Source: a bacterium
GTDB lineage: Bacteria > Bacteroidota > Bacteroidia > NS11-12g > UBA9320
Assembly: GCA_018223105.1 (NCBI GenBank)
Contig: JAAEYY010000011.1
Span: 1 to 47,701, forward strand
DNA length: 47,701 nucleotides
Direction of reading: 5' to 3'
Positions 1,790 to 43,428 of the stretch are shown in pieces. The notes under the pieces are model-generated. The model searched no databases and was not told where the DNA came from. It saw nothing but the letters and a program-made list of their open reading frames with translations. Each line of letters opens with the position of its first letter. Within the stretch, counting starts at the first letter, position 1. A program made the position numbers and the translations under genes.

Positions 1790-2638
1790 ATGCCTCGATC
1801 CATCTTTTTCTGCTTTTATCTCCTATCTCTATTTTTTGCTTCTGCAGAAAATCCAAAAATCGATACACTCAATGCCGAAAAACTCGAAATTCTACTCGAA
1901 AAAACCCATCGTTACCTCAGTATAAAATTGTATGAAGCTGTCCGAACCGGAAAAATTGAAGGATATGCTGTTTACGATACTGCCATCCTTCTAGATAAAA
2001 ACGACCTCCTTTGCCTCGAACAACTCTCCTATAACAAAGACTCCAACATAATTAATATAGATATACCAAAGAGTTTTGCCGACCACGGCTGTTCCTGGGA
2101 GAACTATGGACCTAATAGCGGTACAGCAATTAAACTTTTAGCCGCAAATGAAGAAGATCCCGATCTTCCTAGGGCTATTGTTATATGCATGGAGAAAATG
2201 ATTGGCTTCGCCAGTTTTGGATTGATAGATAGAATTTATGTCCCAATTGAATCTTACAAAGACGTTTTAGATCCCTATGAATTAGAATATATTAAGGCTC
2301 TATATAAGGTATCTTCCAATACCGAATTCGAAATCCCTCCTATTGAAAGCTCAGATTCTCGAATCTACAGAACAAAGGATCTTGAAATAATTCCGCAATC
2401 TGCACTGTCTAATATGGTTTATCAGACTTTAATGATTGACTATATATATACTATGGGATTTCAATCTCAAGATTCATGCATGGGCACATTAATAGTGGAG
2501 AACAATCAGAAATCGATTCGTTTCAGTGTCGAATCCATACAATGCCATGATCCTAAAACCGTGATTCCGGCGAAAACTGCTAGCCTCAATCCTCAGCTCA
2601 CTGATTTAATAGCGCGCTGGAATAAGCTCTCTCAGTAA
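1790..2638 (+). CDS. Hypothetical secreted protein
   Basis: 282 aa, not recognised. The start is placed at ATG 1790 rather than the TTG two codons earlier; this gives an N-terminal signal peptide (MPRSIFFCFYLLSLFFASA, then ENPK). The mature part is soluble-looking, mixed alpha/beta, with several cysteines (for example around LLCLEQL, DHGCSW, QDSCMG and IQCHD) that could pair in the periplasm. No membrane segment after the signal and no lipobox. It is transcribed away from the rrn promoters and converges on the caspase gene, with the two stop codons overlapping by 7 bp. No function can be assigned; the protein is probably exported. Confidence 0.75.
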   Translation: MPRSIFFCFYLLSLFFASAENPKIDTLNAEKLEILLEKTHRYLSIKLYEAVRTGKIEGYAVYDTAILLDKNDLLCLEQLSYNKDSNIINIDIPKSFADHGCSWENYGPNSGTAIKLLAANEEDPDLPRAIVICMEKMIGFASFGLIDRIYVPIESYKDVLDPYELEYIKALYKVSSNTEFEIPPIESSDSRIYRTKDLEIIPQSALSNMVYQTLMIDYIYTMGFQSQDSCMGTLIVENNQKSIRFSVESIQCHDPKTVIPAKTASLNPQLTDLIARWNKLSQ

Positions 2639-5600
2639 ACCCAGAAAACATAATCGTACTGTAAATTCTCTACTCGGGTTGTTGGCTTCTGTGCGCCATG
2701 AGTTAGTTCTTCTACTTTCAATGCTACATACTTCTGCAGCTCCTCCAAAGCTATCTCACCATCTTGGTCGATATCTGCTGCTCCCGACTTCATTCCATCA
2801 ATCACAGCATAAGTAAATACACCATTATTCCATTGGTCGCCCTCCAAAGCATACTCAGCTCCTCCTGCGCTTGATATTATTGTTGCACCTGAGTTGGTTC
2901 TGAGATCATTGAACATCATCCTCATCAATGCAAAGACTTCATCCTGCTGCATCCCTCCGGTACTTTCTACAACTACACCTCTAACATCATTACGTACAAT
3001 CTGCGCTCCGGAAGAATCTGCTCTGACTTCCTCCTTATCTATTTCACCTGAATGGCATGCATCAATAAATACTGTTCGTGTTCTCGACCTCAATGTGCCA
3101 ATTTCTTCTTCCAAGAATGTGTAATTCAAACCGTGCTTCTCCGGTTTCTTAAATTTCATATCATAGGTGGCTAAGTAATAATTGAGATCTTCATCTAACA
3201 ATCCATGACCGGCTATATAAACTATGACATGGTCATACGCTTTTGCTTTGTCGAGTTTTTGTAGTGAGTTTGCAATGTTCTCGTTGGTGACCTCCGAGTT
3301 AATCAAAGTGTCAATAATTACATTGTTGTATTTAGAAGATTTAGAGTAGAAATCAACGAAGTCTCGAATGTCTTTTGCCGCATATGATAGATTATAGTCA
3401 TCATCTTTATACTCCGATGCACCTATACCTAATATATACAAGTCGGGCTTTACTTCAGCTGTATCAAAAAAGATGAATCGAGTTTCGCGATTGGACTGGA
3501 TGCCTTGAGTATTGGTGCACCACATTTGGATCTTGTTCATTCCCGGAGTGAGGGTTACATGGGTTATATTAATCAACATTGCGGTTGCCGTTCCTCCTAT
3601 AACCCGATTTCCATCTCTTCCATATATTGGCACTCCATTGATCGTTACAAATTCTGACTGAACACCGTACTCAAAGTCTGTCATAACATGATTCAATCCG
3701 AAATAAGAGGATGTAACCGTTTGATTCTTCGTCTTTACTTCAATGCTTGGTGCATCGTCTACAGTACTAAACTCACTTTCGGTTAAATTTAATTTCTGCA
3801 AACGTTTCTCTCTGGCCATTCTTAACGAATTAACAAGCGACTCAGAACCGGTGCTGAACAGCTCCAAGACCAAATCCGGACGATTTATCTGTATATCAAA
3901 TTGCTCAAAAGAGTAAAAGTTCGCCAGGGTATCCGAATGAAAAGACTGCTGAAAACCTAATCTTTGGCTACCCAATCTTGATGCAGCATAATACAAATCA
4001 TCCGTCCATAAAATCCATTCTCCATCATTTGATACAAAAAGCGTAGCTGCCGGGTTAACAATTGGATCATATTGTAAATCATATAATTCTAGCATGTATG
4101 CTTCACCTCTCTCCTCGAAAATAGCTTCTATTTTATCTGTGCCATAAGTTTCTTTGAGATCGCTAATCCACTCATCATAGGTTTTGGGTAGTTTACCCTG
4201 ATCAGATAAATCCCAGAAACAAATGGTTTGATCTGCGCTAGCTGAGACCATGTATCTATTATCCGCTGTGAAGGCTACTGAAAATACATCTCCATGATGT
4301 CCTCTATAAGTTCTTTTCACCTTGCCACTGGAGTCAAACACATTGAGGCCAAAAGTTGAACCAACGGCAATATCATTATTTGGCGTTAGCGAGTAACAAT
4401 TGATATAACCTTCGCGCCCAGGGTCTAGATTGATATAATGCTTATCAATGTTTATATCCAACAAAGACAGTTGATTTCTATTCACCATCTCCAAAATGAA
4501 GTTGTCCTTATGTGTATTTTCTGATTGATAAATACTGTCATCAATCTCTTGTTCAAGAAGCTGTAATGTATTTAAATCGAAGACTTTATTTAAACCACCA
4601 TAATCATTAACTCTTGGATATTCATGCCTATCTGTGCTAAAAGCAATGGTACCATCTGCTGAGGTCGCCACTTTCCAATTACGCAGCCCTTTACCAACAA
4701 AATGATTGTATACTTCACCTGTGTACAGATTCCAGACAAAGATATCTCGAGTACTTCCTCCGGCGGTGGCTACAATGCTATCACCAAAACATGCGGTCGC
4801 CATAACTGTATTATCATGACCCTGAAATGTGACCATCTTTGTTCCATCAGGAATACTATACGAAATCGCATTCTTTTGTTCGAGCTGACTTGTCCCAATT
4901 ACAATAGCTTTACCATCACCGGAAAAGCAAACGGAATGAACATCATTTAATCCTATATATTCTGTTTCAGGTAATTGGTCAATTTCCTTTAATAAGGTTC
5001 CAGTAGTATCATAGAGAAGAATACGATTATCATATCCAACTGTCACGAAATATTCTCCCGTTGGCGAGAATGCAGCATCCCTCAATTCTTCTGTATGATC
5101 TCTTAATACTGTTAATTTTGGTTTTCCGGAATTAAAAGTGGCTTCCAAATTCCAAAGTATTGCAGTTGAATCATAAGATGCACTAATTAAATATTTACCA
5201 TCCGGAGAAAATTGGGCTGCATAAACGGCGTCATTATGACCTGTTAACTTTGTTCCAGCCCCGTTTTTCAAGTTCCATACTCCTATATGACCATTTGAGC
5301 CTCCGCTGGCCAACATAGATTGATCTTGAGAAATGTCGAGAGAAACAACCGTAGATTGGTGGCCTCTGTATACAGACAATACATCGCCTGAATAAGTACT
5401 ATAGAATCTGATTTCACCGGCATTATCTTGATTCTCACCCAAATAACCGGCTACAGCGATGTAGTCACCATCGGGAGAAATTGCGCCTGAGTTTAACATT
5501 CCAACGTTACCCCTTTCACTATACCCTCTAAACGTATTTACCAACTCATCATAGTTCAAGTCCCACACTCGCACTGTCTTATCATCCGATACAGAATAAA

Positions 5601-25556: not shown

Positions 25557-26684
25557 CTATTTCAGATACCATTTTCTAAACCATAGTGCGAAGCCGGGAT
25601 CTAGGAATAGAGGATTACCTTCAAAATAATCCAAGACTTCCTTTTGTTCCAGGGCTTCTTTTATACGTTTTATGTTTCCAATGGAACCTAAATTGTAATT
25701 TTTTAAATTCTTCTTTTTATAAAACTGAGTCACGCCTTCAGTTAGGGCGCGAAGGTATTCAATCTGATGTGCAGATAAATCATCAATAATCTTACGATAG
25801 AGAATTTGGTTTTGATACAGCATTATTTCAACCGCTTGATCAAGTTCTTTTTTACCCGCATGTCTATCGCAGTTTAAAAAAGTAACATAGGCCAATTGCT
25901 GAACGTAATAACTATGGCAATCCATTAAATCCGCTATCTCTTCTGCCACATTTTCATCTACACTTTTATTAAACAATAAAAATCGTTTTTGGATATAGGA
26001 GGTCCATTCTTTTTTTTCAATCTTAGAAAGGAACATCAGGTCGCCAAAACCATAAAAGGGTAGGTTTTGCTCCGTAAAAAAGCGATTCATTAAACTCCGT
26101 TTGCTACCGTAAAGAATATAGTTCACCGCAGAATGATGTTGCCAATGAGACCTCAATAGTTTTTGCAGCTCATAGTCCTTATCAAAATCAGCCAGGTTCT
26201 GAAACTCATCAATACACATTACAATGGTTTTGCCCTTTTCCTCGGCCAACTTCTGAGGCAGTTCCAAAATCTCAGATTCCGGCACTTCGTCGTCTCTCCA
26301 ACTTAATTTAAAAGAAAGTTCAGCATTGGGGTCCGGCGATAAAGATAATTCAGGTATGAGCTTTGAAAAGAAAGTTTGAATAGACCGGATCAACTCATCC
26401 GACTTCGTTTCTGTGGCTTTAAGAACAGCGGAAGCATAATGCTCAAAGAACTGTTTTCTACTTGCTACGCGAAATAAATCGAGAAAAACGAAGATTACTT
26501 CGCCCTTGGAGAATGAATCCGTTGCTTTATGCACCAATGAAGTCTTACCCCATCTACGAGGTGATATCACCACCGTATTTACTCCATGTTCAATATTGGT
26601 ACTGAGACGTTTTAATTCTGCCTTTCTATTGAGAAAAACGCGTCTGTTGACCACCGTGCCGAAGTAAAAAGGCTGCTCCTTCAT
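25557..26684 (-). CDS. AAA+ ATPase of the archaeal-type ATPase_2 family
   Basis: 375 aa from ATG 26684; a TTG three codons earlier is rejected since it overlaps the -7 box. Walker A is ISPRRWGKTSL (about 40-50, Ser in place of the first Gly, as often in this family), Walker B IVMCIDEFQNL, then a sensor-like stretch YILYGSKRSLM and a C-terminal helical, probably winged-helix part (about 290-375). No membrane segment. Relatives are single-chain STAND-like ATPases of unknown role, sometimes paired with toxins or nucleases, none of which is seen here. It is an unexpected member of the mevalonate operon and has its own promoter overlaid by repeats. Confidence 0.88.
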   Translation of the reverse strand: MKEQPFYFGTVVNRRVFLNRKAELKRLSTNIEHGVNTVVISPRRWGKTSLVHKATDSFSKGEVIFVFLDLFRVASRKQFFEHYASAVLKATETKSDELIRSIQTFFSKLIPELSLSPDPNAELSFKLSWRDDEVPESEILELPQKLAEEKGKTIVMCIDEFQNLADFDKDYELQKLLRSHWQHHSAVNYILYGSKRSLMNRFFTEQNLPFYGFGDLMFLSKIEKKEWTSYIQKRFLLFNKSVDENVAEEIADLMDCHSYYVQQLAYVTFLNCDRHAGKKELDQAVEIMLYQNQILYRKIIDDLSAHQIEYLRALTEGVTQFYKKKNLKNYNLGSIGNIKRIKEALEQKEVLDYFEGNPLFLDPGFALWFRKWYLK

Positions 26685-26690
26685 TACACA

Positions 26691-26721
26691 CAAATGTATT
26701 ATACATTTATGTATTATACAA
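26691..26721 (-). promoter_or_regulatory. Promoter of AAA ATPase gene (TTG-N20-TACATTTG)
   Basis: Minus-strand -7 box TACATTTG (26691-26698) and TTG (26719-26721) with a 20-base spacer, both matching the Bacteroidetes consensus. The box ends 6 bases before ATG 26684, so the mRNA would start almost at the start codon. It is one of the few boxes outside the rrn leader with a well-placed -33 element. Confidence 0.7.
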
Positions 26722-26734
26722 GTTAGTACTATAC
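26692..26734. repeat. Operator-like array: 17-bp palindrome and repeats at 15-bp spacing
   Basis: Perfect palindrome AAATGTATTATACATTT at 26692-26708. Its core GTATTATAC (26696-26704) recurs at 26711-26719 and, with one change, as GTACTATAC at 26726-26734; centres are 26700, 26715 and 26730, i.e. exactly 15 bp apart. The array covers the -7 box, spacer and -33 element of the ATPase promoter. This is what a cooperative repressor site would look like; the regulator is not identified. Confidence 0.65.
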
Positions 26735-26742
26735 ATTAATGT

Positions 26743-27642
26743 TTAGTACTTGATGAGGTCTTTATAACTCAAAACCACTGAATATCCGGCATTTTTAAAG
26801 TATTGTTCAGAACCATCTTCGGCGCAAACCAGAATAAAATCGCCGCCCCAAGCTCCCAATGACTTGATGGCAAATGGATAATCTTTAAAATGCTCCGTCT
26901 TTACAGGGTTTAGACCTGTAACTTTCGAGATGAGCTGCTCGTGCTCCGAAACCAATTTTTGAAACTCCTTAAAATCATCGGTCCCAACAATAGATCGAGT
27001 AAGTTCACTACAAGTTTCAATATCTGATAATTCAACTTCCTTTTCTTTAAAACTCGAAATAGCGTCTCTGCTATTCTTCTTCCGGCCTAAATACACAAAG
27101 AAAAGTTGATCTCGAAATGAAGGTTGATATACAAAGCTATCCCAAGCAGGCGGTCGACTATAAATCAGCTCACTGCCCACCATACCGACTGCGATATCCA
27201 CTCCGCTCCCGCCTAAACTGGCATCCGACAGTGCAAAAGCATTGGTCTCCGACCATTTTGCGATATTGCAAATAAGAGTGCTGCTGCTGCCCAAGCCCCA
27301 AGAACGATCAAAGTCCAATTTCGTTTCAACTTCAAAACCACTATTTTGAGCTAAAAATTCAGGATTCTGGTTTCGGGCTTCAATCAAAAGCTTTTGAATA
27401 GTCTTGGCAACCTCTGCATCAGTGCTATTTACAATAGCCATTGTAGGAACATCCAATTCAGCCACAAACCAAACTTCATCCTTAAGGTCTTTTGCTGTCC
27501 ACATAAGTTTACCATATGAATCTGAATCACGGACTACCAAGCTTTGTCCGGGCTTAGTTGGAAGTGCAAAGGCTTCAGCTCCACGCAAGACTAAATACTC
27601 GCCTGTAATCAATAATTTACCATGAGAAAAGAAACGGTTCAT
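26743..27642 (-). CDS. GYDIA-type GHMP kinase, candidate phosphomevalonate kinase
   Basis: 299 aa. GHMP fold: motif 1 HGKLLITGEYLVLRGAEAFA, motif 2 WGLGSSSTLICNIAKW, and the segment GGSGVDIAVG, which corresponds to the GSGYDIA motif that names this flavobacterial family, with Val instead of Tyr. The C-terminal motif is SLGAWGGDFILVC. The operon encodes HMG-CoA reductase, mevalonate kinase and diphosphomevalonate decarboxylase but no obvious phosphomevalonate kinase, so this protein probably fills that step (inference). It lies 68 bp after the HMG-CoA reductase gene; a near-match -7 box TACTTTCG lies at 27650-27657. Confidence 0.82.
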   Translation of the reverse strand: MNRFFSHGKLLITGEYLVLRGAEAFALPTKPGQSLVVRDSDSYGKLMWTAKDLKDEVWFVAELDVPTMAIVNSTDAEVAKTIQKLLIEARNQNPEFLAQNSGFEVETKLDFDRSWGLGSSSTLICNIAKWSETNAFALSDASLGGSGVDIAVGMVGSELIYSRPPAWDSFVYQPSFRDQLFFVYLGRKKNSRDAISSFKEKEVELSDIETCSELTRSIVGTDDFKEFQKLVSEHEQLISKVTGLNPVKTEHFKDYPFAIKSLGAWGGDFILVCAEDGSEQYFKNAGYSVVLSYKDLIKY

Positions 27643-27710
27643 TCCATTGCGAAAGTAGAGCAGGCGGTGAAAGCAGCAAAAGAAAATTAGTCGCTGTTCA
27701 GGTTGGAAGC

Positions 27711-29042
27711 TTATTTTAAAACTTCTCCGCCTCGTAATCGCTTAAAAGCAGAGACAACTTCCGCATGATGCGGTGTATGATTTATGAAGTACTTTACGAT
27801 GGTTTGTTTCTCGTCTTCAGTCGCTTCCAACTGATTCAAGATATTCAGAAGATGCATTTTCATATGCCCTTTTTGAATGCCGGTAGTGGTTAAGCTTCTT
27901 AGTGCAGAGAAATTCTGTGCAAGTCCTACAGATGCAGCAACTTGCATCAATTCTTCTGCTCCCGGATGACCCATCATCTCTAAACCGAATTTCACCATAG
28001 GATGCAATGTTGTAATTCCACCCACAGTTCCCAAAGACATTGGGACCTCGATCCAAAAACGAAATTCTCCGTCACTCATATCGGCATGAGTCAAGCTTTG
28101 ATAAGAGCCATTTCGCGCAGCATAGGCATGAGCGCATGCTTCTACTGCTCTAAAATCATTGCCACTGGCGATGATTACAGAGTCAATTCCATTCATGATC
28201 CCTTTATTGTGTGTCACTGCTCTATAAGGCTGAGTTTCTGCAATCTTAACTGCAGTTGTAAATCGCTCGGCAAAAGCCTCCGGTGCTATATCTGTACCCT
28301 CAACCATTTGTGCAATGGGTGTTCGAACTTCTGATCGAACCAAGCTCTCCGGTGTGTAATTACTCAAAATGCACATCACCACTTCAATCTCAGCAGGAGA
28401 TAAATTGCTCTTTGCAACTTCCTCTTTCAAGACATCTGCAAATTTCTCTAAGCAGGTATTGATGAAGTTCGCCCCCATACTGTCACAAGTATCAAATCGC
28501 GCTTCAAGCTGATAATAATTCGGGATATCCGAAGTCTTATCAACCAATTCAATACTCAATATACCCCCTCCTCTTTTGCGCATATTCTCAGTTACTTGAG
28601 AAGTGGCTTCGTAGAATTTGGAGTTGATATCAGTTATCAATTTCTTGAGCTCAGCTTTGTTCTCTCCTTCCCAAAGGAAATGCACATGGCCAATTTTAAC
28701 CATACTTAGCACTTCCGCCTTAAATCCACCTTTGTTGTACCAAAAGTTTGCCGACTTGGCCGCTGCAGCAACCACCGAACTTTCTTCAATGGACATTGGA
28801 ACTGTATAGTTCTTTCCATTGATCAAGAAATTAGGTGCAATACCAAAGGGAAGATAGAAATTCGTTAGCGTGTTTTCTATGAACTCATCGTGCAATTTCT
28901 GCAGTTTCGCGTCTTCATTCCAATAGGTTTTCAAGGTTGCTAATGCTTGTTCCGAATCATTGAAATATTCCTGAACCAACCATTCAATTTTTGCTTCCTT
29001 GCTCAGTTTTGAAAAACCCTTGATGTATTTAGTATCTCCCAT
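27711..29042 (-). CDS. HMG-CoA reductase, class II type
   Basis: 443 aa. Interconverts HMG-CoA and mevalonate; here, with the rest of the pathway beside it, surely acting in the biosynthetic direction. Class II features: no membrane anchor, catalytic Glu in VPMSIEESSVVAAAA (about 81-95), DSMGANFINTCLE, Lys in VTHNKGIMNGID, Asp in GNDFRAVEACAHAYAARNG, and the mobile-flap histidine in GIQKGHMKMHLLNIL. Length fits the class (about 430). Starts 3 bp after the stop of the IPP isomerase gene, so the two are in one operon. Confidence 0.95.
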   Translation of the reverse strand: MGDTKYIKGFSKLSKEAKIEWLVQEYFNDSEQALATLKTYWNEDAKLQKLHDEFIENTLTNFYLPFGIAPNFLINGKNYTVPMSIEESSVVAAAAKSANFWYNKGGFKAEVLSMVKIGHVHFLWEGENKAELKKLITDINSKFYEATSQVTENMRKRGGGILSIELVDKTSDIPNYYQLEARFDTCDSMGANFINTCLEKFADVLKEEVAKSNLSPAEIEVVMCILSNYTPESLVRSEVRTPIAQMVEGTDIAPEAFAERFTTAVKIAETQPYRAVTHNKGIMNGIDSVIIASGNDFRAVEACAHAYAARNGSYQSLTHADMSDGEFRFWIEVPMSLGTVGGITTLHPMVKFGLEMMGHPGAEELMQVAASVGLAQNFSALRSLTTTGIQKGHMKMHLLNILNQLEATEDEKQTIVKYFINHTPHHAEVVSAFKRLRGGEVLK

Positions 29043-29045
29043 TTC

Positions 29046-30044
29046 CTATCTCACCTTTAAAAATTTATTGGCCAATTTTAAGCCCTCAATTTGATTATGT
29101 ACGTATTGTCTTAATTCTTCGTATTCACCCCGAGCATGTTTCAAGAACCCGGATGCTTGACCATAAATAGCATTTGCCACAATTTTCTCCGTGAGGTAAT
29201 ATCCGTCTATGAAGCCTTTAACACCACCGCTGATAATGATATCAGCATTAGTATTACGGTCTCCTAATTCTTCTGCAAGACAATTATAAAACCCCACCAT
29301 TTCTTCGGCAGTATGTCCCCAATGTGAAACCCCGTCGAATGCTTCATGCTCAATATTGCTTCTTCTAAACATCTCAAGCTTGCTGAAATTAGTTCCGCCG
29401 TGAGCACCAAAGTCGATAGCAGTAAGTGGAAGCTTCATCAATGCTTTCAAGCTTTCCGGACCAAAACCCTGACCAACTTCTTTCACAATCACATTTACCC
29501 CTAATTCCAACATTGCTTCTATTGCCTGCAAAGGTGCTCTTTGGAACCGATCGCCTTCCGGCTGCAACCACTCTTGCAATGGGTTAACATGAACAATTAA
29601 ACCATCCGTTTCCGTTTTATTGATTAACTCTTTTACAAGATTCAGCTTCCCTTGATCTTGCAGTTCCTCAATTTGTGCAATACCGAGGTTGGCAAATAGA
29701 GACTGATTTGGCATTAAAGATCTGAGTTGAAAATCTTTTAAATAGGTATCATCTTCAAGGATGATTCGGCAGGAACCCAAGCCCATTCCAAGTCCATATT
29801 CACCGCAGACTTTTGCTAGATTTTTATTGATATGGCCTGCTTCTTTTGTCCCACCGGTCATGCTGCTTACCCAAATTGGTGCTGACAATTTCTTGCCCGA
29901 AAACTCAACTGATAAGTCGTCGTTGGCAGGATGACCCGTAAAAAGAGGCTCGTAGTAAAAACGTGGATCCGTTCCCTTCACCACAGAATCAAATGCCAAT
30001 TCTATATGATCTTTTTTTCTTTCGGATGTGTTTGTATGTCCCAA
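29046..30044 (-). CDS. fni: Type 2 isopentenyl-diphosphate delta-isomerase
   Basis: 332 aa. FMN- and NADPH-dependent isomerase converting IPP to DMAPP. TIM-barrel of the IDI-2 family: N-terminal RKKDHIELAFDSV, WVSSMTGGT, GLGSCR, HVNPLQEWLQPEG, KEVGQGFG, DFGAHGGTNFS, IISGGVKGFIDGYYL and YGQASGFLKHA. The frame has no ATG upstream of the conserved N-terminus; the start is TTG at 30044, with an in-frame stop a few codons before. Transcribed together with HMG-CoA reductase. Confidence 0.95.
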   Translation of the reverse strand: MGHTNTSERKKDHIELAFDSVVKGTDPRFYYEPLFTGHPANDDLSVEFSGKKLSAPIWVSSMTGGTKEAGHINKNLAKVCGEYGLGMGLGSCRIILEDDTYLKDFQLRSLMPNQSLFANLGIAQIEELQDQGKLNLVKELINKTETDGLIVHVNPLQEWLQPEGDRFQRAPLQAIEAMLELGVNVIVKEVGQGFGPESLKALMKLPLTAIDFGAHGGTNFSKLEMFRRSNIEHEAFDGVSHWGHTAEEMVGFYNCLAEELGDRNTNADIIISGGVKGFIDGYYLTEKIVANAIYGQASGFLKHARGEYEELRQYVHNQIEGLKLANKFLKVR

Positions 30045-31059: not shown

Positions 31060-32802
31060 ATGAACAAAGTCTTCTTTCCAGTTTTACTCCTTTTTCTTTT
31101 TTCATGTGCTGATAAGAAATCTGAATTCAATGCAGAAAATCATACTACTGTTTTTGAAAAATCAGAAGGATTAAGAAGTGCTGATTACCACGAGGGCATT
31201 CAGTGGTGGAAAGATATAAGCAAAGCCTCGGCGCAAGTTCAGCTGCTGGAGTTTGGAGAAACGGATGCAGGATATCCTTTACATCTGGCTATTCTATCTC
31301 AAAATCCCATTCAATTAGAAGAAATAAAATTCTCCAATAAATCCTGCATTTTGATCAATAATGCGATTCATCCCGGAGAACCGGATGGTGTGGATGCCAG
31401 CATGATGCTATTTCGGGATTTAGTGGCTTCCCAGAATGAAGTACTAGACAGCGTAATATTAGTCTGTATTCCATATTACAATGTTGGCGGATCTTTAAAT
31501 AGAAATTCTCATTCAAGAACGAATCAGGAAGGTCCGGAAGAATATGGATTTAGAGGAAACGCTCAGAACTTGGATCTCAACCGAGATTTTATAAAATGCG
31601 ACAGCCGAAACGCAAGAAGCTTTGCCCAATTGCTTCAAGTTTTAGATCCGGATGTTTATGTTGAAACGCATGTGAGCAATGGCGCGGACTATCAATACAG
31701 CATGACCTACCTCAGCACTCAGCCTGATAAGTTGGGTTATGGTATGGGAGAATATTTGAGTGATGAGTTTATACCTCAGCTGGAAAAAGGCATGGAAGAA
31801 AAAGAAGATGCTATGGTACCCTATGTGAATATTCACGGATCGGCATTGGATAGTGCTTATGATGCTTTTTATGACTCACCACGATATTCTACCGGTTTAA
31901 CTACCCTTCATCAGATCTTTGGTTTTATTACCGAAACTCACATGCTCAAACCTTTTGATCAGCGTGTGAGGTCGACCTACAATTTCTTGGAAACTTTGAT
32001 CCATAACACCGCTAAGTCGAATAGTAAACTTCAAAAGTTACGCGAGGAGGCCAAAAAAGAGGTAGCCTCTACCCCATCCTATGCTTTAGATTGGGAGAAA
32101 GATACTAGCTCATTCAGAAGCTTAACATTTAATGGCTATGAATACAGCTATCAAACTAGTGAAGTTACCGGTCAGCCAAGACTAAAGTACCATCGAGATC
32201 AACCCAAATTGATCGACATGAAGTACTATCACAAGATGAATGGCATTAATAAACGCGAAAAACCCAAATTCTATATCCTGAAAGCCGGCTATCATGCAGT
32301 TGCTGATTTATTGAGAGACAATGGAGTAGTATTTGAAACTTTAGAACAAGATACTACCTTAAATGTGATTTCATATAAAATTGAAAATTTCGAAACCAAC
32401 ACCAGTACATACGAAAAGCACTATTTTCATTACAATACTTCATTCAGCAGGGATACTATGGAAGTCAAATTTGTAGCAGGAGACTACCTGATCCCACTGG
32501 GAACGGATAAAGACCGATTCTTGGTTGAGCTATTAGAACCCGACGGACCCGACTCTTATTTCAATTGGAATTTCTTTGATGCTGTTTTACAGCAAAAAGA
32601 ATGGTACAGTGCTTATGTTTTTGAAGACAAAGCAGCAGAATATTTAGCAAAAGATACTGCGCTTAAATCTGAGTTTGAAACAATGAAGAATGAGACTCCC
32701 GGCTTCTCCGAAAATGTTCAATGGCAATTGTACTGGATCTATAAGCACACTCCTCATTACGAAAAAGAGCATATGAGATTGCCGGTTTACAGAATTGAGT
32801 AA
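31060..32802 (+). CDS. M14 family zinc carboxypeptidase, lipoprotein
   Basis: 580 aa. Lipoprotein signal with Cys16 (PVLLLFLFSC). M14 metallopeptidase domain about 40-320: zinc ligands His104 and Glu107 in NAIHPGEPDG and His204 in YVETHVSNGAD, substrate-binding NLDLNRDF, and a candidate catalytic Glu292 in GFITETHML. The C-terminal 250 residues are a further domain seen in large Bacteroidetes M14 proteins. All metal ligands are present, so it should be an active peptidase acting on peptides or peptidoglycan outside the cytoplasm. Its stop abuts, with no gap, the stop of the convergent caspase gene. Confidence 0.92.
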   Translation: MNKVFFPVLLLFLFSCADKKSEFNAENHTTVFEKSEGLRSADYHEGIQWWKDISKASAQVQLLEFGETDAGYPLHLAILSQNPIQLEEIKFSNKSCILINNAIHPGEPDGVDASMMLFRDLVASQNEVLDSVILVCIPYYNVGGSLNRNSHSRTNQEGPEEYGFRGNAQNLDLNRDFIKCDSRNARSFAQLLQVLDPDVYVETHVSNGADYQYSMTYLSTQPDKLGYGMGEYLSDEFIPQLEKGMEEKEDAMVPYVNIHGSALDSAYDAFYDSPRYSTGLTTLHQIFGFITETHMLKPFDQRVRSTYNFLETLIHNTAKSNSKLQKLREEAKKEVASTPSYALDWEKDTSSFRSLTFNGYEYSYQTSEVTGQPRLKYHRDQPKLIDMKYYHKMNGINKREKPKFYILKAGYHAVADLLRDNGVVFETLEQDTTLNVISYKIENFETNTSTYEKHYFHYNTSFSRDTMEVKFVAGDYLIPLGTDKDRFLVELLEPDGPDSYFNWNFFDAVLQQKEWYSAYVFEDKAAEYLAKDTALKSEFETMKNETPGFSENVQWQLYWIYKHTPHYEKEHMRLPVYRIE

Positions 32803-35800
32803 TTACCAGATTACAAAATCAAATTCGGCCATGGCAGCTCTTGACGTAGGTTTTTGGAATCCATCGGTCATGTCTTCCACCTGCCTGCTTACGTAATTTA
32901 GAAGTTCAAGCACGGAAACCGACTCATCTTGGTTCAAGTCACCATTATACCCATTCTCAAATGTGTTGGTATTAATCGCCCTTAAGAAAGTCCAGTATTC
33001 GTGTTCATCAATAATTCCATTTCGGTTTAAATCCATTTCATCTTTGCTTATTGAATAAACCTCCTCGTCATTGGATTTTCGCAGCGACTGTAATATACAA
33101 TAGGTGAAAACTCCATTTTTCCATTCGCTACTTTCAAGGGCATAGCTATTTCCTGCTGCAGCGGCAATTACGTAAATTCCACTGCCTCTGCTCACATCGG
33201 CAAAGACCTCTTTCATCAACTCAAAACTATTCTGCAGACCTAATTTTGGTTCTTCTTCATTTACAAAAACCCCTCTCGCACCATCAACCAAATCATGATG
33301 TTTTGGATGATCAGTAGCTGTTTTGTCTACTTCGCCGCTATGGCAGGCATCCATTAATAAAATTCTCTGTCTGGAAGGCGATGATTTCAATACCTGCTCA
33401 AGCAAGTCATATGAAATACCTCGTGCTCTTGGATCCTTAAAGTCTATATCATTCCCGGCATAATAAAAATTCAAATCATCATCCAAGACACCGTGTCCTG
33501 CCACGTACAAGATCACTCTATCCTCGAGTTTAGCACCTTGGAAGAAGTCAGCCACTTTTGACAGGTTTTCCAATTTTACATCTTGATCAAATAAAGAGTC
33601 GATAAAAACATTTCCATATCGATATACATCTTCTTGAATATTACCGTCGAAGTCTTGGTAACCTTCCAACAAAAGTCGATTCTGCTTTGCAGCATTCAGA
33701 ATGTCCCTGCCGTCTTTTCTAGCATATTTCAAATCATAACGATCATCTTGGTAATCACTTACCCCAATAGCAAAAACGTATAAATCAGGTTGAATTTCCT
33801 TTTCCGGAAGGTATGTTATGTTTTGTACTATTGTTTTTGAGCGTATACCGAGTTCATTTTCACAAAAAATCTCAATAATATTTTCCCCTGCACCTAGTTC
33901 AAAAGGCAGGTATATCCTAAAGCGGTTCAAATTATTGGAATCAGATAAGGGATTCTTCAAATTCCTAAACATCATAGCCATATCAAACATTGAGCTAATC
34001 TCTGTTGTAGGCATTTTACTGATAAGTGGGTTGGCTTTAAAGTATTCTAAAAGCTCCTTATGATGCCATTCATAAACAGGCACACCGTTGATATAGGCAT
34101 ATAGCTTATCTATTTCAGATGAAGAACTATTGGCATGAAACAATAAGCCAATTTCTTGTCTTGAAGTGACTCTAGTGGCACTATCCATTCCAAAAAACTC
34201 AGGCCTTGACTTTGGGTCAAATATGTCTTCATTGAAACTATACTTCTCTGATCTTTTCTCAAATACTCGATGCATCAATTCAATAAAATCAGAATCAGTA
34301 GACCCTATTTCTTCGAGAATAACGTGGGGTCTGTTAAAAAATAAATCGTAATGACTCAGCGGAACAATTTTTCCCAATTCGTTAAATGAAACGAGTTGAT
34401 ATGCATTCTTATCTGATTTATAAAAACAGTCATCATTGTAAATCACCCAACTTTCTATAATACCTTTAGAACTATGAATCAATAGCTTAAGTTCACTATC
34501 TCCTTTTCTAATTAAACATTCTCCATTTCTGAAACCAAAGTAAAATGCTCCTGATGAGTCTGCATCAAAATCATAAAGCTCTGATCTTGTAAATTCTTGA
34601 TGAGACAATTCTTCGCCATTTTCAATAATGTAATATCGAGCTACATGGTCATTCAAAATCAGACCAAATTGCCCATTAGATAAGCGCTTAAACTTTGAAT
34701 CTGATTGATTAAAAAGACTTGTAGCTTTTAAATACTTCCCAGAACCGGGATAATAATGTAATGCATAATCACCTAGAACATAAAAACGTCCATCCTTATC
34801 TAAGTGAATACTTTTTCCATAGACCAAAGGATAGCGCTTCGACATTCTTGTTTTGCCGAGCTTGTATCGAGAAATACCCTCTTTATCTAAGACATATACA
34901 CCTGTCTCATCTAGAGCAAAATCCAAAATTGGTGCTTTATGTTCTATTATCAGCTTTTGCCCTTCATCGTGCATATAGATCTTAGTAGAGTCTGATGCAT
35001 ATGTATAGTATAGTTGGTTATTGTAGAAAGCTAAATCGCTGAGCTTATTGCTAGGATCAAAAGGCAAAGCATTCACAATTTGATTAGAATTTGAATTATA
35101 GGTAAAGGCATTCCACAATAAGTTCTCATTCCTTAAATTTTGAACCTGCAAATAGAACAGTCCTTGATCTCTATTATAAAGAAACCGACTAGGATTTAAT
35201 GGAATGTTGAAATCTGCTTCTACTTCTGCTTTATTAAGATCATAGGACCATAGTGCATCAGAATTTGATAGATATAATTTTCCATTTGCAGACAGCAATT
35301 GCTTTACCGACGCTAATCCTGGCCCAAACTCTTTCGTTATTCTAAACATATCGTCTTCATAGGTGTATTCTAGGATGTTAGATCGACATCCAATTATAAC
35401 ATCCTTGACAGAATAATTTGAATGTGCGTAAAGAGCATCACTATAGTCTCCTAGCGCATCAACAAGTGGCTTTAAGACACCGGGTTCAGAGAGTTTTGAA
35501 ATACATTCACCAAAAACAATTTCGTCATTGTCATCATTGTAGGCCAATTGATTGTACTTAATAAAATAACGCTCTTTACTATGCTTTAATGCAAATAGTC
35601 CAGGGTTTGTTGAATCTATCCAACGATCTAATCTCGTAACTTTTCCTGTAAGAGCGATGTGATAAAAACTTTTTTCGGTAGCAACAAGTAGAGCCTCAGC
35701 AATCATCCTCTTACCTTCAATATACTTTAGATTTAAAACCTTACCGTCGCTATTGTTTAAATAATACCTTCTGAAACTGTACGTAGAATATTCTGTAGAT

Positions 35801-36384
35801 TTATGATGAGTTATAACCCCATTATTAGCCGTAAAAATCTGTGTGGCATATTCATCATAACACGTCGCTTCCGCTGTATCTAGCCCATTTACTGGAAATC
35901 TTTTAAACTCTTGTTTATTATCATAATTCAATAATATTCGTTCCTTGGTGGTATGCACCTGCAATACCTTGCCATATTTGTTTAGTGACTTGGCGCTATT
36001 GTAATAATTTACCGTCACATTAATTACCGAATCAGAAAAGCTAAATTGAGATATTAGAGTATCAGCATTGTAATCGTAAAACAAAAGCTTTTTATCGCGA
36101 TATGAAGAAACTACTATAAAATATTCTCCAACACCGCCAAAAGCTTGGATGAAATTAATTCGGCTGATATTGAGTTGTATTCTTTTTAGTAATCGTTTGC
36201 TTTTCAATTCCCACTGATGCACATTACCCATATTATCAGCAGTGAAAACATGAGTAAACTTAGGATCTTGGCACATAGCTGTAATATCAGCCCCATGTCG
36301 CAGTTGAGGAACTATATCAGGCCTTTGTGCATTGAGCACAAAAGTGAAACTTATGAATAAAAGTATGCTTAAATATCTACTCAT
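32803..36384 (-). CDS. Secreted propeller-caspase (C14) protein with two EF-hands
   Basis: 1193 aa. Signal peptide MSRYLSILLFISFTFVLNAQ. The N-terminal ~650 residues are repeated beta strands of propeller type (for example HVFTADNMGNVHQWELKSKR), far more degenerate than the WD40 repeats in the paralogue at 2632-5742. The caspase domain begins near QPDLYVFAIGVSDY, with His964 (YVAGHG) and Cys1014 (LMDACHSGE). EF-hand loop DLNRNGIIDEHE lies at 1118-1129 and a second, less regular one DLNQDESVSVLE at 1149-1160. The tail QKPTSR...FDFVIW matches the paralogue. The His-to-Cys distance is 50 residues in both. Probably an exported, possibly calcium-responsive protease; substrate unknown. Confidence 0.9.
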   Translation of the reverse strand: MSRYLSILLFISFTFVLNAQRPDIVPQLRHGADITAMCQDPKFTHVFTADNMGNVHQWELKSKRLLKRIQLNISRINFIQAFGGVGEYFIVVSSYRDKKLLFYDYNADTLISQFSFSDSVINVTVNYYNSAKSLNKYGKVLQVHTTKERILLNYDNKQEFKRFPVNGLDTAEATCYDEYATQIFTANNGVITHHKSTEYSTYSFRRYYLNNSDGKVLNLKYIEGKRMIAEALLVATEKSFYHIALTGKVTRLDRWIDSTNPGLFALKHSKERYFIKYNQLAYNDDNDEIVFGECISKLSEPGVLKPLVDALGDYSDALYAHSNYSVKDVIIGCRSNILEYTYEDDMFRITKEFGPGLASVKQLLSANGKLYLSNSDALWSYDLNKAEVEADFNIPLNPSRFLYNRDQGLFYLQVQNLRNENLLWNAFTYNSNSNQIVNALPFDPSNKLSDLAFYNNQLYYTYASDSTKIYMHDEGQKLIIEHKAPILDFALDETGVYVLDKEGISRYKLGKTRMSKRYPLVYGKSIHLDKDGRFYVLGDYALHYYPGSGKYLKATSLFNQSDSKFKRLSNGQFGLILNDHVARYYIIENGEELSHQEFTRSELYDFDADSSGAFYFGFRNGECLIRKGDSELKLLIHSSKGIIESWVIYNDDCFYKSDKNAYQLVSFNELGKIVPLSHYDLFFNRPHVILEEIGSTDSDFIELMHRVFEKRSEKYSFNEDIFDPKSRPEFFGMDSATRVTSRQEIGLLFHANSSSSEIDKLYAYINGVPVYEWHHKELLEYFKANPLISKMPTTEISSMFDMAMMFRNLKNPLSDSNNLNRFRIYLPFELGAGENIIEIFCENELGIRSKTIVQNITYLPEKEIQPDLYVFAIGVSDYQDDRYDLKYARKDGRDILNAAKQNRLLLEGYQDFDGNIQEDVYRYGNVFIDSLFDQDVKLENLSKVADFFQGAKLEDRVILYVAGHGVLDDDLNFYYAGNDIDFKDPRARGISYDLLEQVLKSSPSRQRILLMDACHSGEVDKTATDHPKHHDLVDGARGVFVNEEEPKLGLQNSFELMKEVFADVSRGSGIYVIAAAAGNSYALESSEWKNGVFTYCILQSLRKSNDEEVYSISKDEMDLNRNGIIDEHEYWTFLRAINTNTFENGYNGDLNQDESVSVLELLNYVSRQVEDMTDGFQKPTSRAAMAEFDFVIW

Positions 36385-36419: not shown

Positions 36420-37112
36420 CTACTTTCTTAAAATTTTGGCAGTTTTTAAGACTCCTCCAAGTGCAAAATTTGCTGCGATGGTTTCGTAATTCACAGTAAT
36501 GGTTACCATACTATTGCCCAAAAATCCATTATAAAACTTTTGATGGAGAATCACCTTTTCGCGAGTTTCAGACTCATACAATTTTATAGTAAGAAGTTCA
36601 AAGGGTTTTCCATCGATACTGGAAGTACTTTTTTCATAGTCCACAGGCAGTTTCATGTTCTCATAACTTTGTATCAGAGCTTCTTGTCCCTGTGCGAGTT
36701 TCGCTGCAATATCTCGCTCCGTTGCTATAGCTAAACCGGAATTTTCACGAACGATAATGATGTTATTTCGCTGATCTTTCCTGAAACCACAAATCACAGG
36801 CTTTGGTCCCGGTGATTTTGGGTCAACCCCAATATTTTGCATTAAAGCATTGATATCAAGATCGGTAAGTTCATTGTACCCTTTGGGTTGTCTGACCTTC
36901 ATAACAAAACCATTCTTAAGGTCAAAGGTCTTGAAATCGGGTTCCTTTTTCTTAAATCCAGCCGGTAAATCACTGTCAACTTTTGAAACTGAGCTAGAAT
37001 CTTTCTTGTCTGCTTCTACAGTTACGTCTTTATCCGAATCATTACTCGCCGTGTTGCAAGAGGACCATGTAAAAAGTCCAAGTATTGTGATTAAAATATA
37101 GTTCTTTATCAT
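36420..37112 (-). CDS. Lipoprotein of unknown function
   Basis: 230 aa. Lipoprotein signal with Cys19 (ILGLFTWSSC), then a polar Ser/Asp/Lys tether to about residue 60. The globular remainder (about 60-230) has no recognised family; features include NGFVMKVRQPKGYNELTD, ICGFRKDQRNNIIIVRE and a C-terminal MVTITVNYETIA strand. Start codon and the PBP1A stop share one base (TAATG), so it is translationally coupled to the peptidoglycan synthase and may act with it at the envelope (inference). Confidence 0.75.
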   Translation of the reverse strand: MIKNYILITILGLFTWSSCNTASNDSDKDVTVEADKKDSSSVSKVDSDLPAGFKKKEPDFKTFDLKNGFVMKVRQPKGYNELTDLDINALMQNIGVDPKSPGPKPVICGFRKDQRNNIIIVRENSGLAIATERDIAAKLAQGQEALIQSYENMKLPVDYEKSTSSIDGKPFELLTIKLYESETREKVILHQKFYNGFLGNSMVTITVNYETIAANFALGGVLKTAKILRK

Positions 37113-39364
37113 TATTCTTCTTTCTTTTCAGCACCCAAAACTTCGCGTAAGAATCGTTTTAGTTTCTCTTTTCTTCGTTTTTTGCGATCGTCATCTTCCG
37201 GCGAGTCCTCAGTTTCAGTTCGAATTTGATCTAACCAATCACGGAGCATGCTGTCTTCCAGGTAGTCCGGACAATCCAATTCATCTTGCCAGTCCTCATT
37301 CATCGCCGGGAATTGCCCTTTCCATCGCGCACCCGCTGCTGACTGTCTTAAAATTTTTAAGGTATGTCCCACCAAAGGCAGAGCCAAAGCACTACCCGAA
37401 CCACTTCCCGTACTGAAGTGAATCTGAGGTGTAGAGGCTCCTACTCTTGAGGCCAAAACCATACTGCTATTATAAGCAATAAACCAGGCATCCGCGTAGT
37501 TCTGAGATGTTCCGGTCTTTCCTGCAATATCGCCCGAGTACCAATATGAATTCATTCCTCTACCCGTTCCTTCCTTCATTACTTTTTGAAGGAAATAGTT
37601 CATATAGGCAGCTGTCTTTTCATTTAAGACTCGTCTTTTTTTCTTAGCCTTATGCTCATAAATCACCTGGCCTTCACGAGTGCTAATCGATTCGATCATA
37701 TATGGTTCAACCTTATACCCGCCATTAGCAAAAGCTGCATACGCCACAGCTGCTTCGTACAAGCTGGCATCCACAGGCCCAAGAGCCGTTACAGGACGGT
37801 CTTTCAAAGTAGAGCTAAAGCCTAAGTTTTTCCAGGTCATCACCAATTCTTTAAAACCAACTTCAAAGTACAAATTCACCGTTGGGATATTCATGGATTT
37901 CGCTAATGCGCCTGCCATAGAATAAGTACCGCCGTAGGAATGATCGTAGTTTTCAGGGCTCCAAGGTTTGCCGTCGATCAAAACAATTGAATCATTATCC
38001 AAACGTGTGCAGGGATCAACCCCTGATTGTAAAGCCGCTGCATATAATATGGGCTTGAAAGAGGAAGCCATTTGTCTTTTTGCATAAATTTGGTCGTAAG
38101 GTTGAGTCCTGAAATCAACTCCTCCTACCCAGGTTTTCACTGCACCTGATTTAGGGTCCAGTCCAAAAATACCGGCATGAAGCAGGGTTAAGCTCAATGC
38201 TAAACTATCTTGAACTGTAAGAGTGTCGGAATAGAATCCATCCCAGTCAAACACTTCTTGAACATGCTCCTCTATCTCTCTTTTTTCAAAGCCTAAGCGC
38301 TTTATTTCGGCGTCTATTACCGCCTTAAGCCCTTTCTTATTCCATTTAAAATAGTGATTTCGGAGTTGCTTTTGCATCTTCGACAAATGAGTAGCCATTC
38401 CTTTCAAAGCTGCGTTCTGAGCAGTGTAATCCAATGTGGTTTTAATTACTAAACCATCTTTCTTTAAATCGTGTTCAGAACCACCTTCGGAATTGAGTTG
38501 TTCTAAAATTTTTGCTGCATTCTCTTTAACATGCACTAAAAAGTAATTAGCAGGACCTTTAGAGCTGAAATTGGCATAATCCAGATTAAGAGGTAGTGCC
38601 TGAAACGAATCTTTCGCAGGACCATCGAGATAATCATAATTTGCCATTTGAGCTAAAACTACATTCCTTCTAGCTTTACTTTCTTCCGGGTGTAATCGAG
38701 GGTTATAGCTAGTATTCGCTTTCAGCATCCCAACAAGTACCGCTGCTTCTTCCAGACGCAGATCCCGGGCCTTCTTGTTAAAAAAGCGTTGCGCAGCAGA
38801 CTCTATACCATATGTATTTTCTCCAAAAGGAACCTGATTCAGATATAAAATCAGGATTTGATCCTTATCAAATACTGTTTCCAGCCTTCTAGCAATAATT
38901 GATTCTCTAATTTTTGCAACAGGTGCAGAAAGAAATCCAAGATCCTTCCTGCCATACATGTTTTTGGCCAATTGCATTGTAATTGTGCTTCCACCGCCGG
39001 CATCTTGATTAAGAATCAAGGTTTTTATAAGTACTCTGGCTAAACTTCTTGAATCTAGTCCTTCATGTTCGTAGTAGCGAGCATCTTCGGTAGCAATTAA
39101 TGCATCAATAACATATTGTGGTAGTTCATCCAGAGAGAGGTCTGTACGATCTTCTACATAGATTTTCCCAATCAGTTCTCCCTGTGCAGCAATTACTTGC
39201 GATGCCTTGTATTGCTCAAACGATTCTAATTCTGATTCTGTAGGTACATGACCAAATGCACCAAAATATACCAAGGCGAAGAGTAGAACTACTATTCCCA
39301 ATCCTCCTAAACCAATTCTAATTGCCCACTTTAACCATAGGCGTTTTTTCTTCTTCTTTGCCAA
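37112..39364 (-). CDS. Class A penicillin-binding protein (PBP1A-type)
   Basis: 750 aa. Bifunctional peptidoglycan glycosyltransferase/transpeptidase in the inner membrane. Lys-rich cytoplasmic start, one membrane helix (about 15-34), GT51 domain with catalytic Glu93 in EDARYYEHEG and GGGSTITMQLAKN (123-135), then the transpeptidase with SxxK at Ser434-Lys437 (ASSFKP), SMN at 490-492 and KTGTS at 616-620. The acidic/basic C-terminal tail is cytoplasm-like in composition but would be periplasmic. The start is TTG; an in-frame stop lies a few codons upstream and no ATG fits. A near-match -7 box CATCTTTG is at 39373-39380. Confidence 0.95.
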   Translation of the reverse strand: MAKKKKKRLWLKWAIRIGLGGLGIVVLLFALVYFGAFGHVPTESELESFEQYKASQVIAAQGELIGKIYVEDRTDLSLDELPQYVIDALIATEDARYYEHEGLDSRSLARVLIKTLILNQDAGGGSTITMQLAKNMYGRKDLGFLSAPVAKIRESIIARRLETVFDKDQILILYLNQVPFGENTYGIESAAQRFFNKKARDLRLEEAAVLVGMLKANTSYNPRLHPEESKARRNVVLAQMANYDYLDGPAKDSFQALPLNLDYANFSSKGPANYFLVHVKENAAKILEQLNSEGGSEHDLKKDGLVIKTTLDYTAQNAALKGMATHLSKMQKQLRNHYFKWNKKGLKAVIDAEIKRLGFEKREIEEHVQEVFDWDGFYSDTLTVQDSLALSLTLLHAGIFGLDPKSGAVKTWVGGVDFRTQPYDQIYAKRQMASSFKPILYAAALQSGVDPCTRLDNDSIVLIDGKPWSPENYDHSYGGTYSMAGALAKSMNIPTVNLYFEVGFKELVMTWKNLGFSSTLKDRPVTALGPVDASLYEAAVAYAAFANGGYKVEPYMIESISTREGQVIYEHKAKKKRRVLNEKTAAYMNYFLQKVMKEGTGRGMNSYWYSGDIAGKTGTSQNYADAWFIAYNSSMVLASRVGASTPQIHFSTGSGSGSALALPLVGHTLKILRQSAAGARWKGQFPAMNEDWQDELDCPDYLEDSMLRDWLDQIRTETEDSPEDDDRKKRRKEKLKRFLREVLGAEKKEE

Positions 39365-41538: not shown

Positions 41539-43428
41539 CTATTCAATTATCACTTTTTGACTGTGAATTACATCGCCATTTTCTGCTTGAATACTAAGCA
41601 CATACATTCCCGTAGCCAAGTCATTAACATGCACCAAAAATGCTGCACTACCGGCACGAACTTGCTGATTTCTTAGCTCTTTCACTCTTTTTCCACTGAT
41701 GTCGGTCAAGAAAACATTGACAGTCTGGTCTTCTGTGAAATTTGCAGCAACCTGAACACTAGAACTCGCGGGATTTGGATAGGTCAAAATAGACTGAACC
41801 AATTCCAGTTCATCATTTACATCCACTTTGGCAATCCAAACATTATTCTTTCCCGTAGAATCACCATAAGAGCCACATAGCCAAACTATGCCTGCGCGAT
41901 TATACTGTCTTTGTATATCAGTGTAGTCGCCCCAACGCTCCAAAGAATCTGCAACGAAAGTATTGATGATGCTATCCCCTTCTTTGATCACATTGATTTC
42001 TGAATAAATGCTTTCTAAACTCGATAGACCATTGTAAAAAACCAAACTAGTACCCGGATAATCCTGTGCTCCTGAATGAGAAAAAGTGATCATCATCGGT
42101 CTTTTATCCTGAGGCTCTCCTCCAGTAAATGTAATCGAGGGATAAGCAAGATCGTAGTCCGGGTGATTGAGTCTCTGAGCAGTAACATTGCGAGCTCCAT
42201 CTAATTCAGAAATAATCCCGTGATATATACCGGAACTTAATGGTTCGGGAATAAGAGTACTTTGAACAAAATGAATTGAATTCTCGTATAGTGTCGCTGA
42301 AAGCACCCGTGTATCGTTGGTTTGAAGTAAAAATCCTTCTGTAGGCTGGAGGGCACTCGGTGGAACCCCGTAAGCCAAACCTGAACGCAGTACATCTAAG
42401 CTGTGCTGTCCATTGCCCGAATTAGAAGACTCATTTATGTAATGAAGAAAAATCGTATCATTCATCTCTGCATCGGGACGAACAGATAGGAAATACATGT
42501 CTTCCTGATTGAGAGCTTCAGCGGGCTGAACCGGACAGATGCTCCAAACAGGTTGATTCTTGTATTCAATGTCATAAAAAAGATTCTGAGTCAGACTCTC
42601 ACCATTATAACCATCTTCTTTATTAATCTGCCAAATGAAGGATTGAAGAAAGCCTTCTTGCCAACTTGTATTGTCCAACAGAGAATTAACCGTAATGTAA
42701 AGGTCTACCCCGTTATGAGCAATGATTGGATAATCGCTCCACGTATTTCCTCCTAAGGGTTTACCGTTGATTTGATAAAAGTTCCAGTTACCGGTAGGAT
42801 CATTGGTTTGAGTAAATCCAACTATAATTCTCGTATCATCACTTGTGCTACCCTCAAGGAAAACCAGTATAAAACGATCTGCAATTGGATCGTAGAGTAC
42901 TTTAGGGTCATAAAAACGATCTAAAATCCCAAGTTGACCTGCCACAATACCTGCCAAAGATCTAAATTTCAGCACATTGCCCGTAGAGTCTAGTATAGTA
43001 ACAGTAGTATTAATCGCGCTAATGATTATTCCATCGTTACTTACAGCAATAGTGTTATCATTGGGTATACCGGCAGGACCAATAGGTTTCCCTGTAAAAT
43101 CCTCACCAACTGAGGGATTCAGGTCCTTGTTTGTGTTCGTATATGGTGATGTTTTATATCGAATGTCAGTATTTGCTTTGCGCTTTGCATCTAACTTCTT
43201 TTTTATTTCATCGGTGTTAGATAAAGGTTCGGGAGATGCGGAATTATGCTTAAGGGCGCTGAGTTCTAAATCTTGGTTTGACTCAGAAAAATCTACCACC
43301 CATTTCCTCACCTGAAATTCGGATGCGTCCATAACTTTATAGGAACTCTGAGCCTGAACAACTTCTGTATACAAGAAGCTGAATAAAAGGCTAATTACTA
43401 CCGCCCGCAGTGGGAAATTCAATTGCAT
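41539..43428 (-). CDS. T9SS-secreted protein with type A sorting domain
   Basis: 629 aa. Signal peptide MQLNFPLRAVVISLLFSF...VVQAQ. The long middle (about 60-540) is a beta-rich, propeller-like region (TITSAINTTVTILDSTG-like strands, YDPIADRFILVFLEGSTSD, WNFYQINGKPLGGNTWSDYP) found in Bacteroidetes exported proteins of unknown role. The last ~80 residues are a T9SS type A sorting domain: TYPNPASSSVQVAANF, VFLTDISGKRVKEL, LATGMYVLSIQAENG and HSQKVIIE. It is cleaved and surface-attached or released by analogy. -7 box TACTTTTG lies 5 bases before the ATG. Confidence 0.88.
   Translation of the reverse strand: MQLNFPLRAVVISLLFSFLYTEVVQAQSSYKVMDASEFQVRKWVVDFSESNQDLELSALKHNSASPEPLSNTDEIKKKLDAKRKANTDIRYKTSPYTNTNKDLNPSVGEDFTGKPIGPAGIPNDNTIAVSNDGIIISAINTTVTILDSTGNVLKFRSLAGIVAGQLGILDRFYDPKVLYDPIADRFILVFLEGSTSDDTRIIVGFTQTNDPTGNWNFYQINGKPLGGNTWSDYPIIAHNGVDLYITVNSLLDNTSWQEGFLQSFIWQINKEDGYNGESLTQNLFYDIEYKNQPVWSICPVQPAEALNQEDMYFLSVRPDAEMNDTIFLHYINESSNSGNGQHSLDVLRSGLAYGVPPSALQPTEGFLLQTNDTRVLSATLYENSIHFVQSTLIPEPLSSGIYHGIISELDGARNVTAQRLNHPDYDLAYPSITFTGGEPQDKRPMMITFSHSGAQDYPGTSLVFYNGLSSLESIYSEINVIKEGDSIINTFVADSLERWGDYTDIQRQYNRAGIVWLCGSYGDSTGKNNVWIAKVDVNDELELVQSILTYPNPASSSVQVAANFTEDQTVNVFLTDISGKRVKELRNQQVRAGSAAFLVHVNDLATGMYVLSIQAENGDVIHSQKVIIE

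Follow-up and report, generated by a model that had tools for sequence, protein, structure and literature searches.

The conserved C-terminal tail of a bacterial propeller-caspase and its paralogue is most likely the end of the caspase fold

A 47,701-nucleotide stretch of a Bacteroidota genome (GenBank assembly GCA_018223105.1, contig JAAEYY010000011.1, positions 1 to 47,701; hereafter the window) encodes two proteins with a C-terminal caspase (C14) domain, P0001 and its paralogue P0002. Both finish in the motif QKPT[TS]R...[YF]D[YF]V..W (QKPTSR...FDFVIW in P0001), in which an initial annotation saw a functional end, perhaps an undescribed anchoring or activation element. The ending is indeed shared, and its conservation across the family is borne out by 114 of 115 scored subfamily members. 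The proposed element is unsupported: the tail is most likely the C-terminal strand region (β6) and Q-x-P turn of the caspase fold itself, since the Pfam caspase match enters it and solved caspase folds align to its end. The observation was correct and its main explanation is ordinary; what retains interest is an expanded Ca2+-loop region and a conserved step in the linker between the p20 and p10 parts. The whole reading, in which P0001 is a secreted-type C14 protease with the tail as fold end, an EF-hand-like loop in p10 and self-cleavage in the linker, is given a probability of about 0.72.

The Pfam caspase family PF00656 matches P0001 with E 1.1e-11 and 45.3 bits, above the gathering cut-off of 21.4, and P0002 also lies above this cut-off. 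The catalytic dyad is His964/Cys1014 in P0001 and His846/Cys896 in P0002, 50 residues apart in both as initially annotated, and in P0001 it sits on a modelled fold whose best solved match reaches Z 21. By family match, dyad and modelled fold, P0001 is a caspase-fold (C14) protein with predicted protease activity; a search of solved structures with its sequence alone returned unrelated weak matches only. The two proteins had been called otherwise divergent, which does not hold. A single BLASTP alignment joins residues 646-1193 of P0001 to 576-1034 of P0002 (28% identity, E 3e-66), and by this alignment they are homologous across the C-terminal half (~550 residues), beyond the tail.

The PF00656 match covers profile positions 6-230 of 233 and reaches residue 325 of a 330-residue fragment, into the tail. 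A monomer model of the caspase domain (109 sequences; predicted local distance difference test, pLDDT, 81.7; predicted template modelling score, pTM, 0.83) has a helix at residues 1158-1172 preceding the tail and short strands inside it. In all 50 listed best solved chains, from caspases, metacaspases and MALT1, the alignment extends to Trp1193 (residue 374 of the model), with scores such as Z 21.1 for MALT1 (root-mean-square deviation 3.0 over 207 residues), 20.4 for metacaspase-4 and 20.0 for caspase-7. The tail end is aligned to the points where the caspase parts stop in MALT1 (561), caspase-7 (302) and caspase-3 (276), and Pfam match and fold alignment together cover a p10-like region to the C-terminal end. 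In caspases, β6 is described as the strand along which dimers form (PMC4357240). A striking shared tail can thus be explained without a new element, and the case offers a simple reading rule: a Pfam caspase match that extends to the final residues marks the tail as part of the fold.

How widely is this ending distributed? Relatives were drawn from 58 near genomes (P0001 has a match in 10), from 198 class genomes (a C14 match in 76, a match above 200 bits in 12) and from 75 named-genome loci. These loci were retrieved by the patterns DACHSGE and WxNGxFTY, which inflates the frequency of both patterns; no selection was made on tail, loop or spacing. The 161 distinct rows comprise 118 with the dyad and at least 200 bits, 33 at 50-200 bits (hereafter the more distant C14 proteins), two below 50 bits and eight without the dyad. 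Subfamily counts refer to 115 of the 118, a second dyad pattern having missed L120, which keeps the tail, and L049 and L123 at 108-3494, whose tails are degenerate. The lone tail-less row among the 115 (L126:37-6837) apparently shifts reading frame right at the tail. In P0001 numbering, Asp891, Asp955, His964, Asp1012, Cys1014 and Glu1084 are conserved in all 115 members, and Gln1177 (114), Pro1179 and Arg1182 (113 each), Glu1160 (111) and Asp1189 (103) in nearly all. PF00656 matches 17 of 17 aligned members at E<=1. A tree of the 115 members and 20 outgroup rows places both window proteins in one C14 subfamily, on different branches, although one long-branch outgroup row falls inside the subfamily and the deeper forks are weakly supported. 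Dyad spacing is 50 in 113 members, 49 in one and 51 in one (and 50 in 15 of the 33 more distant C14 proteins); being a subfamily rule, it marks no special link between P0001 and P0002, and that idea was rejected.

The subfamily is large and mostly from Bacteroidota, and a literature search found no paper on it or on the tail. Among the class genomes, full matches above 200 bits number four in G000, five plus one partial in G094 and three in G244, with one each in nine genomes; the source genome has five C14 genes, of which four are subfamily members, divided equally between the window and another contig. Members also occur on contigs labelled Planctomycetota, Cloacimonadota, Delongbacteria and Spirochaetes (L079, L080, L071, L104, L107, L123, L096), and one full member (L138) lies on a contig labelled as a Thermoplasmatota archaeon (metagenome-assembled genome), by transfer or mis-binning. 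In genome G496 (contig C2, 109606-110422) the p20 and p10 matches fall in two adjoining open frames, either a split gene or a sequencing error, and L146:605-1138 is a 178-residue open frame with the p10 part and tail only.

The initial annotation counted two EF-hand-like loops in P0001 (from residues 1118 and 1149) against one in P0002 (from residue 990), and this is confirmed. In the subfamily the loop lies between NGxFTY and the tail, in the α4-α5 turn, and is present in 103 of 115 members (102 of these with the tail seen) and in 6 of the 33 more distant C14 proteins. Since the 12 members without a recognizable loop keep the tail, as well as the dyad and spacing, the tail is independent of the loop; it does not always follow an EF-hand, and its role as a partner of the loop was rejected. 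Between NGxFTY and the tail there are 45 residues in 100 of 114 rows and 38 in eight loop-less rows; the 113 rows other than P0001 lie within 38-50, and P0001 alone has 87. On the tree the short loops require two changes, eight of the rows grouping in a single clade (support 100). Because the distances vary and the short loops map to two tree changes, the loop is, judged from these alignments, a losable decoration of the α4-α5 turn, expanded in P0001. This expansion is a 42-residue insertion with the extra loop, found in P0001 only in the samples examined: when insertion and tail were searched against 395 class genomes, query residues 1-32 were covered by no match except the P0001 gene. Its origin as a duplication of the EF/α5 segment is unsupported, 1202 of 2000 shuffles having scored as well.

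What would such a loop do? It probably holds one Ca2+ ion and stiffens the p10 part, most members having it and one clade having lost it. An unlikely alternative is that loop and tail form a Ca2+-operated switch, in which Ca2+ moves β6 and turns the protease on; consistent with this are the presence of a loop ahead of the tail in 103 of 115 members, its Glu1160 in 111, the two loops of P0001 and the report that most metacaspases examined to date depend on Ca2+ (PMC5756287). The 12 loop-less members that retain tail, dyad and spacing argue against it. Outside the cell, a secreted protein would normally see a constant millimolar Ca2+ level, and this speaks for a structural site rather than a switch. 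Less probable again is an elaborate version, in which a Ca2+ site in p10 beside the dimer strand, paired into a cooperative sensor in P0001, would let external Ca2+ set both dimerization via the tail and linker self-cleavage. Comparison of the natural variants, with the loop lost in one clade and a second one added in P0001, would offer a test of what calcium does in a bacterial caspase.

The p20-p10 linker carries the second conserved feature: 17-30 residues ahead of the LF motif of p10 stands a basic residue and, directly after it, G, A, S or N. Of 103 members, 100 have this step, where shuffling predicts 45.1 (12 of the 115 rows could not be placed in this wider test, hence 103, and 9 of 115 in a [KR]G test). 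Eight further members were held out; since they were found by similarity to the tail, only their spacing (50 in 8/8) and linker counts (7/7 scorable, 3.4 expected) are independent. Metacaspases are reported to cut after Arg or Lys (PMC5756287), and in a Candida metacaspase this linker is reported to be cleaved behind basic residues during maturation (PMC9622860). From this, self-cleavage can fairly be inferred here, with Arg1037-Gly1038 as the candidate step. A preference for Arg or Lys at P1 is likewise predicted; two features point to it, the invariant Asp891 with its aligned metacaspase counterpart and the basic residue of the linker. We take Asp891 to have a role in the S1 pocket.

P0001 would consist of a signal peptide, a double β-propeller, a β-rich domain and then the p20 and p10 parts of one C-terminal caspase domain, its tail held in place by the caspase core and not acting as a separate anchoring or activation peptide. 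The propeller may bind a partner or substrate, the protease would prefer Arg or Lys as metacaspases do and could mature by cutting itself after Arg1037, and β6 may pair two molecules in a caspase-like manner. For little-studied secreted bacterial caspases this gives two testable points, the predicted self-cleavage step in the linker and the Ca2+ loop of p10.

Several observations weigh against this account. The program used for the fold alignments, VIA-align, reports only the first and last aligned residues, and it is at this level that the tail alignment was read. For the tail, pLDDT is ~81-89 in the domain model but drops to 65-84 when the full protein is modelled. A plain edge strand would not need conservation as strong as that of Arg1182 and the final Trp, which leaves room for a further contact made by the tail. 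The insertion is modelled with low confidence (~46-57), the family-position loop of P0001 is without its glycine, and the EF loops fall below the Pfam cut-offs (EF-hand_1 15.3 vs 25.4; EF-hand_5 14.6 vs 25.9, both scored on the 330-residue fragment), although the loop pattern itself is present. Finally, the linker window and residue set were chosen after the sequences had been viewed, and the hold-out is small.

The N-terminal half of P0001 had been described as a propeller that lost its WD40 consensus. At the sequence level this stands, as WD40 family PF00400 has no match in P0001 at E<=1 and strong matches in P0002, but the full model (pLDDT 67.8, pTM 0.60) keeps a double propeller at ~27-606, which aligns with tandem-WD propeller structures at Z up to 16.6, model confidence here being partly low. 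Foldseek with the full model gave no caspase among the 50 matches listed, because propellers fill them. PF00400 is found at E<=1e-5 in 7 of 8 relatives scanned, and since L072 is also without it, loss of the consensus is not unique to P0001.

Could these proteins be defence or self-killing effectors, like the CHAT/caspase conflict systems, rather than housekeeping surface proteases? We consider this improbable. A PADLOC caspase model matches both (E 0.0017 in P0001, 3.2e-8 in P0002), similarity to the EACC1-associated caspase model is distant and genomes hold several paralogues; however, a simple scan finds hydrophobic, signal-peptide-like N-termini in 59 of 67 complete relatives, the score against the EACC1 model falls well short of its cut-off (69.5 vs 140) and no conserved partner gene was found beside relatives. 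The PADLOC matches being weak only, a defence system was rejected.

We also consider it improbable that the tail is a dedicated element of its own, for anchoring, sorting or activation, distinct from the caspase fold. Its very high conservation, including Arg1182 and the final aromatic residue, and its length of exactly 17 residues from Gln to stop in 92 of 115 rows fit such a role. Against it, the tail lies inside the Pfam match and coincides in alignment with the point where solved caspase domains end, 28 of the 33 more distant C14 proteins share its Q-x-P core, and it is not always terminal, since 432 residues follow it in L097 (and 13-15 in four rows). A type IX secretion sorting or anchor signal was rejected: the C-terminal sorting domain TIGR04183 has no match in either window caspase, whereas matches of 39.8 and 38.7 bits (cut-off 23) in two other window genes, among the positions 20327-22714 and 41539-43428, serve as positive controls. 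The caspase of L097:1-2991 runs on beyond the tail into what by eye are ankyrin-like repeats.

Among known systems, prokaryotic WD40-linked metacaspases and orthocaspases share a caspase domain with a His-Cys dyad and, in some, WD40 or EF-hand motifs; surveys report that 73 of 671 prokaryotic metacaspases carry WD40 repeats (PMC3501461) and seven archaeal orthocaspases an EF-hand motif (PMC6426788). P0001 differs in its N-terminal propeller with signal peptide, its EF loop inside p10 and the extra loop in the 42-residue insert. The MALT1 paracaspase is the best structural match, aligned to the last tail residue, and in both a β-rich domain flanks the caspase; the immunoglobulin (Ig) domain of MALT1 follows the caspase part in solved chains, whereas the β-rich domain of P0001 precedes it. 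Type I metacaspases (Candida glabrata, Trypanosoma brucei) match in p20 sequence, the aligned invariant Asp and the linker basic residue, but P0001 has a propeller, a signal peptide and an EF-like loop at α4-α5, and no sequence match of its p10 part to them was found. The nearest named bacterial caspase model, NCBIfam NF047832 (EACC1-associated caspase), covers p20 and, in P0002, also the EF-loop region; the two window caspases score 69.5 and 76.2 against its curated cut-off of 140, and no EACC1 partner was seen. GSU0716 of Geobacter (3bij) has the caspase fold (Z 19.8) and a sequence match over part of p10 but, unlike P0001, is a stand-alone domain without a propeller.

Table 1. Features of P0001, P0002 and the convergent neighbour in the window.
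Feature	Residues	Position	Strand	Basis
P0001, propeller / caspase-domain (C14) protein, secreted-type	1193 aa	32803..36384	-	ORF (open reading frame) translation, Pfam
Signal-peptide-like N-terminus	1-19	36328..36384	-	sequence; cleavage site placed by eye
Predicted double β-propeller	~27-606	34567..36306	-	structure model, confidence partly low; no WD40 consensus
β-rich domain immediately N-terminal to caspase	~744-858	33811..34155	-	strands in model; Ig-like character presumed only
Caspase (C14) domain incl. tail	865-1193	32806..33792	-	Pfam, domain model, structure alignment
Asp891	891	33712..33714	-	invariant 115/115; aligns with metacaspase N-D motif Asp
Catalytic His964, in GHG	964	33493..33495	-	invariant 115/115
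Catalytic Cys1014, in DACHS	1014	33343..33345	-	invariant 115/115
Arg1037-Gly1038, p20-p10 linker, candidate self-cleavage step	1037-1038	33271..33276	-	basic + small residue conserved
42-residue insertion, α4/α5	~1106-1147	32944..33069	-	NGxFTY-to-tail distance; genome search
Extra EF-hand-like loop DLNRNGIIDEHE, canonical	1118-1129	32998..33033	-	loop pattern
Family-position EF-hand-like loop DLNQDESVSVLE, Gly6 lost	1149-1160	32905..32940	-	loop pattern
Conserved tail QKPTSRAAMAEFDFVIW, probable caspase fold end (β6 region)	1177-1193	32806..32856	-	Pfam, family counts, model
Convergent neighbour, zinc-carboxypeptidase-like by eye		31060..32802	+	no Pfam or NCBIfam match; stop codons abut
P0002, WD40 / caspase-domain protein	1036 aa	2632..5742	-	Pfam, BLASTP, tree
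P0002 linker Arg921-Gly922	921-922	2977..2982	-	linker scan
P0002 single EF-hand-like loop	990-1001	2740..2775	-	loop pattern
P0002 tail	1018-1036	2635..2691	-	sequence

Both genes end against a convergent gene, as initially annotated: the P0001 stop codon (32803-32805) meets that of 31060-32802 with zero bases between, and the 3' end of P0002 overlaps a convergent open reading frame (1784-2638) by 7 bases. The flush neighbour of P0001 was not found beside relatives. Upstream of P0001 on the same strand lie a lipoprotein-like gene (36420-37112) and a transglycosylase/transpeptidase (PBP1A-like) gene (37112-39364), possibly in one operon with it. A search near relatives (L006, L007, L068-L142, L162-L166) for genes resembling the PBP1A, lipoprotein, DUF2797 and carboxypeptidase neighbours gave a single match, PBP1A-like, at L131, and a conserved operon or partner gene was rejected on this count. 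On contig C42 of the source genome (L006:3866-15234), a lipoprotein-like gene, a propeller-caspase, a caspase with DUF4384, a trypsin-like protease with ankyrin repeats and a second propeller-caspase are co-directional. Elsewhere in the window, positions 23593-30044 hold what by eye is a mevalonate-pathway-like gene run (kinase, decarboxylase, HMG-CoA reductase, isomerase).

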